Positions 36,989 through 48,809 of a DNA stretch of 64,000 nt are shown here, in pieces. The notes under the pieces were generated by a model. That model worked only from the letters and a program-made list of their open reading frames with translations. It had not been told where the DNA came from and did not search any database. Made by a program: the position numbers and the translations under genes. Source of the stretch: Xanthomarina maritima (lineage in GTDB: Bacteria; Bacteroidota; Bacteroidia; Flavobacteriales; Flavobacteriaceae); assembly GCF_008084905.1 (NCBI RefSeq), contig NZ_VSFC01000023.1:1-64000 (forward strand), written 5' to 3'. Position 1 is the stretch's first letter. Every line of letters starts with the position of its first letter.

Positions 36989-37017
36989 ATCGCTAAACTG
37001 TATTTTTTATCGATTAA
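36989..37017 (+). promoter_or_regulatory. Direct-repeat element upstream of membrane paralogue A
   Basis: ATCGCTAAA and ATCGATTAA occur 20 bp apart start to start, separated by a T-rich spacer, and end 15 bp before the -7 box. The same arrangement precedes paralogues B and C. Two direct half-sites about two helical turns apart resemble LytTR-type regulator sites, but the protein is unknown. Confidence 0.45.
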
Positions 37018-37032
37018 TTTCAACTTTTAGAA

Positions 37033-37040
37033 TATATTTG
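37033..37040 (+). promoter_or_regulatory. -7 box of membrane paralogue A
   Basis: TATATTTG, exact TAnnTTTG match, without a clear TTG at -33. That would suit an activator-dependent promoter. Confidence 0.55.
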
Positions 37041-37074
37041 TAACAAAATGAGCTTATTATAATTAAATTTAAAT

Positions 37075-37791
37075 TTGAGCTCATATTATGTTATGATTCA
37101 ACTTGTAATTTCAACTTTTATCTTAGAAATTGTTAACTCTAATATTTATGAAGTTTTAGAATTATTAATTGTACCACTTCTAACTATTACTTATTTAATT
37201 AGAATTAAAGACAAGTCTTTATTATTCGCATTATTTCTCGTTACCTATTCAGTTTCTGATTTAATTAATATTATTGATCAAGATAGACTTTATGAGATTA
37301 TATATTTTACATGTAATTGTCTTTATATTTTATCTTATATTTTTTTATTGTTAGAAGTTTTAAAGACTATAAATTTAAAAACCATACTAAAAAGATTTCC
37401 AGCACATTTTATTGTTTTGCTATTATTAAACCTATATATCATTTTCGTAATGGCAACTATAATTAATCCTATAGATTTTGAGACTAATCATCTTAGTCTG
37501 GTAAGGATTATTGAGCATCTTTATAATTTTGTTTTGCTGTCTTTACTTAGTATGTCCTTTTTAAATTATTTATTACATGAAGACACAAAATCACTTCTAA
37601 TGTTTTGTGGTTGTTTAGCTATAACTTTTTCAGAGTTATTGCTTATAGGTTATTATTATTTATCAGAACAAATGCTTGCTTTAGGTTTTGTTTCTACATT
37701 ACTTAATATTTGCGCTTTTATTTTATTCTATTATCAATCTACACTAAAACCTAAAGCTAATAACTCGAATAGCTTAGCAAATAAGGAATAA
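37075..37791 (+). CDS. YhhN-like membrane protein A
   Basis: About 232-238 residues with seven or eight membrane helices. Start is either TTG 37075 or, more likely, ATG 37093 (MIQLVISTFILEIVN). Landmarks shared with the two genes that follow: LIVPLLTITYLI in helix 2, NCLYILSYIFLLLEVLK in the middle, a short HEDTKSLLMFCGCLAITFSELLLIGYYY segment read across its turn, and a final LNICAFILFYY. These align with the YhhN/TMEM86 (lysoplasmalogenase-like) pattern but are divergent; the family histidines and aspartates are mostly absent. First of three tandem paralogues; function unknown. Confidence 0.6.
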   Translation: MSSYYVMIQLVISTFILEIVNSNIYEVLELLIVPLLTITYLIRIKDKSLLFALFLVTYSVSDLINIIDQDRLYEIIYFTCNCLYILSYIFLLLEVLKTINLKTILKRFPAHFIVLLLLNLYIIFVMATIINPIDFETNHLSLVRIIEHLYNFVLLSLLSMSFLNYLLHEDTKSLLMFCGCLAITFSELLLIGYYYLSEQMLALGFVSTLLNICAFILFYYQSTLKPKANNSNSLANKE

Positions 37792-37879
37792 TCTATTTTA
37801 TGTTTTATTTAAAGTTCAAGATTTTTTAATTATAAGAAGAAAGATTATTATTTAGAATTAATTCAAATAATCATGTTGC

Positions 37880-37909
37880 ATCGTTAAAGTGTATGTTTTT
37901 ATCGTTTAA
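37880..37909 (+). promoter_or_regulatory. Direct-repeat element upstream of membrane paralogue B
   Basis: ATCGTTAAA and ATCGTTTAA, 21 bp apart start to start, with T-rich spacer, 14 bp before the -7 box. This is the best-conserved copy of the element. Confidence 0.5.
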
Positions 37910-37923
37910 ATGAAATATTTGTG

Positions 37924-37931
37924 TATATTTG
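37924..37931 (+). promoter_or_regulatory. -7 box of membrane paralogue B
   Basis: TATATTTG, exact consensus, 18 bp upstream of the ATG at 37950. It rules out the TTG at 37929, which would start within the promoter. Confidence 0.6.
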
Positions 37932-37949
37932 CTTTCAAATGTAAGCTAT

Positions 37950-38672
37950 ATGATTTTATCCAAATCGAATATATTAATAGTTACAATTATCCTACTTTGT
38001 TTTTCTTTTGCTCTTTTTGAGTTTCAAGAAGAGTATTTTATATCTAGTATTTCCAAGTCTTTTATTGTGCCTTTGTTTACTTTATTATATTTTATTAATG
38101 AAAAAAACAAATCTCCTTTTTTTACTTGGTTTCTGCTTTTATTTTCAATTTCTGAATTAATGGTATTTGCTGAATTTTACATACAAACTGACAGGGCATT
38201 TGATTTATATTATATGATTGGTAACTTACTTTATATATTTGCTTATATATTGTTGTTAATTGAAGTTTGTAATAGTCTTAATTTTAAATTGGTATTAAAA
38301 AATTATAAAGCACATTTAGTAGTTCTAACCTTATTAAATGTTTATATGGTTTATGTATTAATTACTATTGTGAATCCTTTTATGTTTAATTCATTTATGA
38401 TTGTAATTGAGTTAACATATAACATAGTCATGTTGTTATTGCTTACTTTTTCATTAATAGCCTATTTTTATAATGATGATAAAAAGTCTTTAGCACTTTT
38501 TCTAGGTTCTTTAAGTATCGTGTTTTCTGAGGTTATACAAATTGCTTATTTCTATATAACCGATAAGGAATTATTAAATTTTATTTCAACTATACTTTTT
38601 GTGTTAGCTTTCTGCTTTTTCTATTACCATTCAAGAGTTAAAATGGGAGAAGGATTTAAAGCAGTTGTCTAG
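37950..38672 (+). CDS. YhhN-like membrane protein B
   Basis: 240 residues, about eight membrane helices. Start set to ATG 37950 (MILSKSNILIVTIILLCFSF) because the promoter overlaps the longer TTG alternative. Shared family text: FIVPLFTLLYFINEKNKSPFFTWFLLLFSISELM across its turns, GNLLYIFAYILLLIEV, DDKKSLALFLGSLSIVFSEVIQIAYFY and FVLAFCFFYYHSR. Its closest relative in the window is protein A. It lies 158 bp after A and has its own promoter and repeat element, so the genes are not simply an operon. Function unknown. Confidence 0.6.
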   Translation: MILSKSNILIVTIILLCFSFALFEFQEEYFISSISKSFIVPLFTLLYFINEKNKSPFFTWFLLLFSISELMVFAEFYIQTDRAFDLYYMIGNLLYIFAYILLLIEVCNSLNFKLVLKNYKAHLVVLTLLNVYMVYVLITIVNPFMFNSFMIVIELTYNIVMLLLLTFSLIAYFYNDDKKSLALFLGSLSIVFSEVIQIAYFYITDKELLNFISTILFVLAFCFFYYHSRVKMGEGFKAVV

Positions 38673-38730
38673 TAGGTTATTATTTTCGTTTTTTTTCCCC
38701 ACTTCCTTTCAAATAAATTTTAACATACTT

Positions 38731-38760
38731 TTCGATGAACGGTAGTTTATTATCGTTGAA
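38731..38760 (+). promoter_or_regulatory. Direct-repeat element upstream of membrane paralogue C
   Basis: TTCGATGAA and ATCGTTGAA, 21 bp apart start to start. It is only 6 bp from the -7 box, against 14-15 bp for A and B, so the geometry differs. Confidence 0.4.
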
Positions 38761-38766
38761 ATTAAT

Positions 38767-38774
38767 TATATTTG
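38767..38774 (+). promoter_or_regulatory. -7 box of membrane paralogue C
   Basis: TATATTTG, exact consensus, 26 bp upstream of the GTG start of gene C. An out-of-frame 11-codon frame (ATG 38788, MNYYCERMAKN) overlaps the start and could be a leader peptide or chance. Confidence 0.5.
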
Positions 38775-38800
38775 TTTCAACCTACTTATGAATTACTACT

Positions 38801-39562
38801 GTGAAAGAATGGCTAAAAATTAGTTATAACAGGATATTTTTGTGTATTCTGTGTTTACTTATCTTAATTAATGTTCTTGCTACTATTAGCGAGAGTGGAT
38901 TATTACTTCAAATTACAAAACCTCTTTTTGTACCTGTGTTTATTATGTACTATTTTATAAAAAACAGATTCTTTAGTTTTGTTTTTGTTTTGTTTTTGGT
39001 GTTTTCTTTTGTTGGTGATTTTTCTTCTGTATTTTCATCAAGTAATTTAATTATTAAATTTTCGAGTTTTATATATTTCTTAGGCTATTTAACGCTTATA
39101 TTTTACACTTTTTCGAAGTTTAAACGCATTAGACTTGATATGGTAATTGGGCTTTATTTACTAATTGTTATTAGCATAAATTCATATTTTATTTATGAAT
39201 TATTTTCAATCTTAAAATTACAAATTTCAGACCCTATTGAAGTTAATTTGTTTGCAGCAAAAAGTGTGTCTTTAATTGCTTTAACGTTTTTATCGTTTGT
39301 TGTATATCTAAATTCAGACACTAAACAATCTATAATATTCTTATTAATGGCTTTATGTTTTGTTTTTTCAGATGTCTTGCATTATATAAGCAATTATTAC
39401 ATCTATAACTGGAGTTTTGTATTGTTAGATCGCGTTTTACATGTGGTTGGTTTATTTTTCTTATTCAATTATATAATTGGTGAAAATAGAATAAGAAAAA
39501 GACAAATTGTTGAAGAAAGAATGTCTTCAGAACCTTCCTTAACTCTAACTAGACAATTATAG
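38801..39562 (+). CDS. YhhN-like membrane protein C
   Basis: 253 residues, about eight membrane helices, starting at GTG 38801 (MKEWLKISYNRIFLCIL). Of the three it looks most like YhhN/TMEM86 proteins: ITKPLFVPVFIMYYFI (KP at the helix-2 start), VFSFVGDFSSVF (GD), FIYFLGYLTLIFYTF, LMALCFVFSDVLHYI, and LDRVLHVVGLFFLFNYII with a late histidine. TMEM86 enzymes hydrolyse vinyl-ether lysolipids, which is only a distant guess here. It ends in a basic soluble tail. Its 3' end overlaps the convergent nucleotidase gene by 14 bp. Confidence 0.6.
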   Translation: MKEWLKISYNRIFLCILCLLILINVLATISESGLLLQITKPLFVPVFIMYYFIKNRFFSFVFVLFLVFSFVGDFSSVFSSSNLIIKFSSFIYFLGYLTLIFYTFSKFKRIRLDMVIGLYLLIVISINSYFIYELFSILKLQISDPIEVNLFAAKSVSLIALTFLSFVVYLNSDTKQSIIFLLMALCFVFSDVLHYISNYYIYNWSFVLLDRVLHVVGLFFLFNYIIGENRIRKRQIVEERMSSEPSLTLTRQL

Positions 39563-48747: not shown

Positions 48748-48780
48748 CATGAATCTCATCTTTAGTTGATTGCGTATTTA

Positions 48781-48809
48781 ATCGTTTAAAATTGCATTTT
48801 GTCGATTTG
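48781..48809 (+). promoter_or_regulatory. Possible fourth copy of the direct-repeat element
   Basis: ATCGTTTAA and GTCGATTTG are 20 bp apart start to start, with a T-rich spacer, the same layout as the elements before the three YhhN-like genes. It lies about 100 bp upstream of the T9SS surface-protein gene. No good -7 box follows at the same distance. Confidence 0.25.

Follow-up and report, generated by a model that had tools for sequence, protein, structure and literature searches.

A conserved LytTR-type paired half-site precedes three tandem YhhN-like membrane protein genes in Xanthomarina maritima and points to a common control circuit

Why would a bacterium carry three related membrane protein genes side by side, each behind its own promoter and each promoter behind the same paired sequence element? 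We asked this of a 64,000-nt window (the whole stretch of DNA that was analyzed) of contig NZ_VSFC01000023.1 from Xanthomarina maritima GCF_008084905.1 (Flavobacteriaceae), hereafter the own genome, in which three consecutive + strand genes, labeled p1, p2, and p3, are arranged in this way. The observation had been made in a preliminary description of this DNA. As a whole it is confirmed, in a stronger form than sequence alone had let be seen, and its interpretation is partly supported. The conserved element before the three membrane genes, which many marine flavobacteria share, points to an undescribed common control circuit; in the literature searched (titles and abstract openings), no description of the cluster or the element was found among the matches listed. 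Papers are cited below by PMC accession, each from excerpts of its text. The features of the trio are as follows.

36989..37017, + strand: paired half-site 5′ of p1, ATCGCTAAA (36989) and ATCGATTAA (37009), 20 bp apart; score 31.1
37033..37040, + strand: −7 box TATATTTG of p1, read from the sequence
37093..37791, + strand: p1, YhhN-like protein with eight predicted transmembrane helices, 232 aa from the ATG kept in relatives; a TTG at 37075 is also possible, giving 238
37880..37909, + strand: paired half-site 5′ of p2, ATCGTTAAA (37880) and ATCGTTTAA (37901), 21 bp apart; score 32.0
37924..37931, + strand: −7 box TATATTTG of p2, read from the sequence
37950..38672, + strand: p2, YhhN-like protein with eight predicted transmembrane helices, 240 aa; AlphaFold2 predicted local distance difference test (pLDDT) 89.7, predicted template-modeling score (pTM) 0.86
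38731..38760, + strand: paired half-site 5′ of p3, TTCGATGAA (38731) and ATCGTTGAA (38752), 21 bp apart; score 29.6
38767..38774, + strand: −7 box TATATTTG of p3, 8–9 bp nearer its site than in p1 and p2
38801..39562, + strand: p3, YhhN-like protein with eight predicted transmembrane helices, 253 aa, GTG start; AlphaFold2 pLDDT 83.8, pTM 0.80

The element has a consensus near ATCGATAAA-N11/12-ATCGTTTAA and is phased to a TAnnTTTG −7 box, the −7 box of sigma-A promoters in Flavobacterium psychrophilum (PMC9723704). The preliminary description gave the half-site as ATCGnTnAA, with copies 20–21 bp apart. The spacing holds in all three cases, and the pattern holds except for a small deviation in the first p3 half-site, TTCGATGAA, which begins TTCG. 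It also remarked that the −33 TTG is missing, and by eye none of the three promoters has a TTG at that distance.

To score the element, we built a two-half-site weight matrix from the upstream regions of 54 homologues, 42 of which were used (>7 bits), and applied a line of 15 bits to cluster sites. The three window sites belong to the training set and score 29.6–32.0 bits, and when the 64 kb window was resampled 20 times under a first-order Markov model, no position exceeded 20 bits and one exceeded 16. The matrix was then scored on 50 loci (from Hanstruepera, Bizionia, Mangrovimonas, Flavivirga, Algibacter, Confluentibacter, and others), leaving out one further p1/p2-type gene with too little upstream sequence. 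At the 45 of these without overlap to the training loci, the element exceeded 15 bits upstream of 40 of 44 p1/p2-type genes and 22 of 28 p3-type genes (62 of 72 in all), although the test loci are mutually related and therefore not independent draws. No other place in all 50 loci (414,226 bases) exceeded 15 bits. The −7 box lay 10, 11, or 12 bp past the site window in 44 of the 48 scoring p1/p2-type genes, and at 11 (15 genes), 2 (11), or 12 bp (1) in all 27 scoring p3-type genes, so that the latter form two groups whose spacing differs by roughly a helical turn. Misses at ≤15 bits amounted to 6/54 p1/p2-type and 6/33 p3-type genes across the 50 loci. Counting against the mechanism proposed below, 12 of the 54 training homologues were without a usable site, including p1 in three of the eight Xanthomarina genomes. 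Still, the upstream similarity stands above AT-rich background, and the expectation of a promoter for each gene with a common paired element was borne out both at p1–p3 and at unseen homologues. By sequence, the element is a real, conserved promoter site, of the LytTR type by its geometry.

Downstream of the p3 promoter lies a second conserved sequence, the leader CCTACTTAT (38781..38789, + strand), which is found a few nucleotides past the −7 box and mostly starts 18–20 nt before the start codon. It is exact in 23 of 33 p3 genes vs. 0 of 54 p1/p2-type genes, and of 46 distinct copies within 1.46 Mb, a total that counts overlapping loci, 35 come after a −7 box. It is possibly an RNA-level element.

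How widely is this arrangement kept? The trio is present in all eight Xanthomarina genomes examined. A p2-type match occurs in 60 of the 149 family genomes searched, and a p3 match in 14 of the 40 relatives searched; genes of these types are spread through a large clade of Flavobacteriaceae. When 12 clusters of other genera were compared gene by gene, the first family gene came after a ligA-like gene in all 12, and a p3-type gene was present in 11. Across the 50 loci, 28 held one p2-type and one p3-type gene, 5 held two p2-type genes and p3, and 17 held only a p2-type gene within the stretch covered. In the window itself, the trio is flanked by a ligA-like gene and a pair of exported 5′-nucleotidase-like genes (names by eye). 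Two unusual arrangements were also observed. In one genome (G138, L063 1265-6511), six YhhN-like genes stand in a row, and just one of them is preceded by a strong element. Another genome, outside the clade (G012, L221 4482-5975), has a tandem pair of p3-like genes elsewhere, close to prfA- and pyrF-like genes (by eye), where no element scores above 8 bits.

What kind of protein might bind such an element? LytTR sites consist of 9–11 nt repeats with 11–13 nt spacers (PMC4847170), and their repeat geometry and placement are also treated in PMC6193735. With half-sites of ~9 bp, 11–12 bp between them, and a start-to-start distance of 20 or 21 bp, the element falls within this geometry, as the preliminary description had proposed from the spacing. 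Like the sites of the AgrA, YpdB, and ComE type, it is a pair of direct repeats adjoining a promoter; it differs from them in its core, ATCGNTNAA, in its placement in the −33 region of a Bacteroidota promoter, and in having only a candidate for its cognate protein. A LytTR protein probably binds the repeat, and it is likely, to a slightly lesser degree, that the element acts in activation. The element offers a well-delimited LytTR-type cis-element in Bacteroidota that is open to testing.

The motif recurs upstream of homologues, but not near a LytTR gene: the own genome has nine LytTR matches, all on other contigs, with none on the window contig. This is compatible with a regulator outside the LytTR family whose direct repeats happen to be spaced by two helical turns, as is the palindrome TCGA within many half-sites, because of which both strands can score. 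However, the repeat length, the 11–12 bp spacing, and the location before the promoter all fit published LytTR sites, and we judge such a regulator improbable. The combination of a LytTR-type repeat with a polytopic membrane protein product also recalls LytTR Regulatory Systems (LRS), in which membrane inhibitors are paired with LytTR regulators (PMC6193735). In an LRS, the LytTR gene immediately precedes the membrane gene and shares its operon, whereas this cluster contains no regulator gene and gives each membrane gene its own promoter.

What, then, are the three proteins? The first two are 43% identical, and the pairwise similarity of p3 to p2 is marginal (E 0.008), but the p1/p2 profile matches the p3 profile with 99.3% probability (hhalign). 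This upholds the description of three tandem related polytopic proteins, and on this basis p1, p2, and p3 are homologous eight-helix membrane proteins. A distant resemblance to YhhN/TMEM86 had also been proposed. We compared profiles of 64 p1/p2-type, 33 p3-type, and 26 canonical YhhN sequences, the last from the same family of bacteria; the first two sets include repeated or partial copies of some genes from overlapping loci. A Pfam search with p1, p2, and p3 at E values up to 10 gave no match to YhhN (PF07947), and for none of the three was any Pfam or NCBIfam family above cut-off. Profile-to-profile comparison, by contrast, matched YhhN at 97.2% (E 4e-11) for p3 and 95.7% (E 1e-8) for p1/p2, with alignments co-linear across 192–218 columns. 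Five controls with reversed columns reached 0.2–0.7%, and the four of them run against YhhN reached 0.2–0.5%. The proposed resemblance thus fails at the level of Pfam and stands at the level of profiles (96–97%). One p3-type gene from another genus matched PF07947 at E 0.0037; we gave this no weight, as unrelated frames in the same list scored equally well.

Predicted structures agree with this placement. The AlphaFold2 models, made from window sequences and those of other named genomes, are confident, and those of p2 and p3 each have an N-terminal helix followed by seven helices, eight in total. The same topology has been described for a model of YhhN, which has an N-terminal helix and the topology of G protein-coupled receptors (GPCRs) (PMC4602095). 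Residues ~25–235 of both models align with GPCR seven-helix domains (VIA-align), over 178 residues for p2 (root-mean-square deviation 3.5) and 189 for p3 (5.9). The best Z, 12.8 for both, is by the tool's own note within the range that unrelated helical bundles can reach by chance, which detracts from the match, and the fold evidence is therefore supportive only. The rows returned were mainly GPCR domains, plus designed GPCR-like folds and human ACER3, with no YhhN row among those listed. Neither model matched a PDB entry in Foldseek at E 0.001 or better, and a sequence search of the PDB found no solved relative of p1–p3, so the fold comparison was made without a YhhN structure. Taken together, profile comparison and the agreeing predicted folds place p1–p3 as a diverged YhhN branch.

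A shared fold does not settle what these proteins do. In TMEM86A and TMEM86B, eight residues have been proposed as catalytic, most of them required for activity, and human TMEM86A requires K43, D82, D190, and Y213 (PMC11994398). We compared the eight positions (K, G, D, H, G, S, D, and Y) and found that none of p1, p2, and p3 holds the complete set. Window p3 keeps five of the eight (K40, G72, D73, S190, and D191), with Y96, M183, and H214 at the equivalents of H104, G182, and Y213. Among p3-type sequences generally, the H104 equivalent is Y or F in 32/33 and the D190 equivalent is D in 20/33. Window p1 and p2 are more altered, with H changed to Y, D190 to E, and G81 to S. Across the p1/p2-type sequences, the D190 equivalent is E in 64/64, the H104 equivalent is Y in 60/64, the G81 equivalent is S in 45/64, and the D82 equivalent is D or E in 56/64; the K43 equivalent is variable and the Y213 position is unaligned. 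Like YhhN/TMEM86 lysoplasmalogenases, then, p1–p3 have eight helices, co-linear profiles, a GPCR-like predicted fold, and either SD (p3) or SE (p1 and p2) at the catalytic SD position. Unlike them, they fall under the Pfam cut-off, have changed catalytic positions, and occur as tandem paralogues with a common promoter element.

These residues bear on whether p1–p3 are ordinary lysoplasmalogenases that have merely drifted. The five positions retained in p3 would fit such drift, but the three replacements in p3 and the greater divergence of p1 and p2 do not, and the own genome also encodes a canonical YhhN (L001) with all eight positions intact. We consider mere drift quite unlikely and, by their residues, do not class p1–p3 as lysoplasmalogenases, although they share the fold and parts of the pocket. 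The same substitutions, several of them at residues needed in human TMEM86A, fit a non-catalytic role, in which p1–p3 would serve as membrane sensors or partners built on the YhhN fold, perhaps with feedback to the regulator like that of the membrane inhibitors of LRS. Yet a polar set is conserved in most p1/p2-type sequences (D/E69, S193, E194, H122, E154, Y157, and N158), as are D73 and S190 in most p3-type sequences, which suggests a working pocket. This sensor or partner role strikes us as doubtful. Lipid activity is itself doubtful because the catalytic residues are altered, a point against the mechanism set out next, and our judgment on whether p1–p3 carry out lipid chemistry rather than a non-catalytic role is evenly balanced.

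We therefore word the proposed mechanism conditionally. The proteins p1–p3 would form a conserved tandem membrane family with the YhhN/TMEM86 fold, an N-terminal helix plus a seven-helix GPCR-like bundle. Each gene would be transcribed from its own sigma-A promoter, which has a good −7 box and no −33 box, with the LytTR-typical direct repeat occupying the place of the latter. A phosphorylated LytTR response regulator would bind the repeat as a dimer and contact RNA polymerase, so that sensing of an envelope or membrane signal would switch on the three genes together, and the proteins, their active site altered, would go on to act on membrane lipids of the lyso or ether type. As a whole, LytTR-switched tandem YhhN-fold membrane proteins are the explanation we favor, with moderate confidence. 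By sequence, the family is an unannotated branch of YhhN that is altered at the active site, and the genome retains a canonical copy beside it.

Which LytTR protein might be the regulator? The best candidate is an orphan REC-LytTR protein (L078/L244, P0003; C28 in the own genome) encoded between priA-like and rpsF-like genes. A copy 89–99% identical is found in 56 of 149 family genomes, own included; 62 others have a copy at ≤72%, and 31 have none at E 1e-50. Presence of this hyperconserved form follows that of the cluster closely. Counting as strong a p2 match of E 1e-15 or better, and excluding three genomes with weaker matches, 55 of the 56 genomes of this class have a strong p2, and 55 of the 57 genomes with a strong p2 have that regulator (G140 is the exception to the first count, G048 and G088 to the second). 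Compared with the own copy, median identity within the class vs. outside it was 94.4 vs. 64.3% for the regulator and 79.3 vs. 67.2% for PriA, with controls at 88.6 vs. 77.0% for RpsF and 93.2 vs. 88.2% for RpsR. This comparison set 29 class loci against 20 chosen outside genomes (19 for PriA, RpsF, and RpsR), the latter including G048 (p2 present, 70% regulator) and G096 (weak p2 match). Mean tree distance within the class (20 members used) was 0.109 for the regulator vs. 0.369 for PriA, and among the others 0.771 and 0.807, respectively. This says that the orphan regulator came under unusual constraint in the lineage with the cluster and the element.

Several points weigh against this candidate, however. 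The comparison took the 29 class loci that scored best out of 56. The PriA tree also parts class from non-class genomes, with one misplacement, and because the class is nearly one clade, the correlation represents little more than one event. No good element is present at the regulator locus itself (best 12.5 bits), and a second LytTR, encoded at C21 next to a histidine kinase gene (L075), is likewise confined to the clade. The orphan REC-LytTR is thus a lead, not proof, and we name it as the regulator only tentatively. Should it prove correct, a defined set of targets would be known for a response regulator whose conservation resembles that of a ribosomal protein.

The second protein raises the alternative that the element is bound by another LytTR regulator, the L075 one for example, and that the priA-linked protein is conserved for unrelated reasons. 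We searched with a joined query of seven other LytTR proteins, of which 12 candidates were scored per genome, so absences are not firm. L072-type proteins appeared in both groups, L075-type proteins were clade-limited, and the remaining types were patchy. On this search, L075-type orthologues (61–79% identity) occurred in at least 14 of 24 cluster genomes, while 10 genomes lacking p2 had, for the L075 part of the query, best matches at ~45% or less or no match. With nine LytTR matches in the own genome, there is no shortage of alternatives. The priA-linked protein, on the other hand, occurs in 24/24 of the same cluster genomes with much stronger conservation than the L075 type, and we regard binding by another LytTR regulator as rather unlikely.

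A third protein was considered and rejected. The Hpt-linked LytTR at C4 (P0001) initially appealed as it adjoins one of two Hpt matches in the genome (the sole one over cut-off) and as the promoter region of a TPR hybrid kinase carries a paired site. It was found in 39 of 149 genomes at E 1e-40 with just four, own included, above 45% identity, and none above 45% in the same-genus genome G038.

Does the element also control genes beyond the cluster? A strict pattern combined with the −7 box occurred at five places in the own genome vs. one for the reversed pattern: the p1, p2, and p3 promoters, a TPR hybrid histidine kinase gene (C8), and a gene for a small exported protein (C13). Over the eight genomes of the genus, there were 23 matches vs. 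8 reversed, 12 of the 23 being cluster sites. To the detriment of a wider circuit, 24 cluster genomes gave 40 matches, those in the cluster among them, vs. 41 with the pattern reversed; 14 genomes without p2 gave 13 vs. 8. Because counts were not above the reversed control outside the genus, the genome-wide pattern was rejected as a regulon list, and a regulon beyond the cluster is a hypothesis. Non-cluster matches that recurred at one gene across two or more genera were kept, but only as leads.

The kinase site is one such lead. By sequence it recurs in 6/8 genus genomes, and the kinase gene lies downstream of it in five genus loci (L085, L170, L171, L178, and L182; in the own genome, L085 2713-4938) and in a Mangrovimonas locus (L198). 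It is weak on the gene strand (15.1, 13.7, 12.2, and 12.2 bits in L170, L178, L182, and L198) and overlaps the end of the GAPDH-like gene before it, so its conservation may in part reflect coding sequence. The site at the gene for the small exported protein occurs in the own genome and also in G151 (L177, 32.8 bits) and a different genus (L214, 28.1 bits).

With these leads included, a broader picture can be drawn, which we offer as highly speculative and very unlikely as it stands: a marine flavobacterial clade would have converted a family with the lysoplasmalogenase fold into tandem GPCR-like membrane proteins, all tied to a single near-invariant orphan LytTR. The resulting circuit would sense or remodel membrane lipids, with the YhhN-like proteins reporting to or restraining the regulator of their own promoters, together with the TPR hybrid kinase and exported surface proteins.

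The window holds one more strong site, a candidate regulon member, after which no −7 box follows on the minus strand.

48774..48807, − strand: fourth strong paired half-site, 26.0 bits, between fabI-like and exported type IX secretion system-type protein genes (by eye)

In two genera, genes for exported FG-GAP-repeat-like proteins (by eye; L216 and L218) were each preceded by a paired site with a −7 box, at 18.8 and 15.1 bits.

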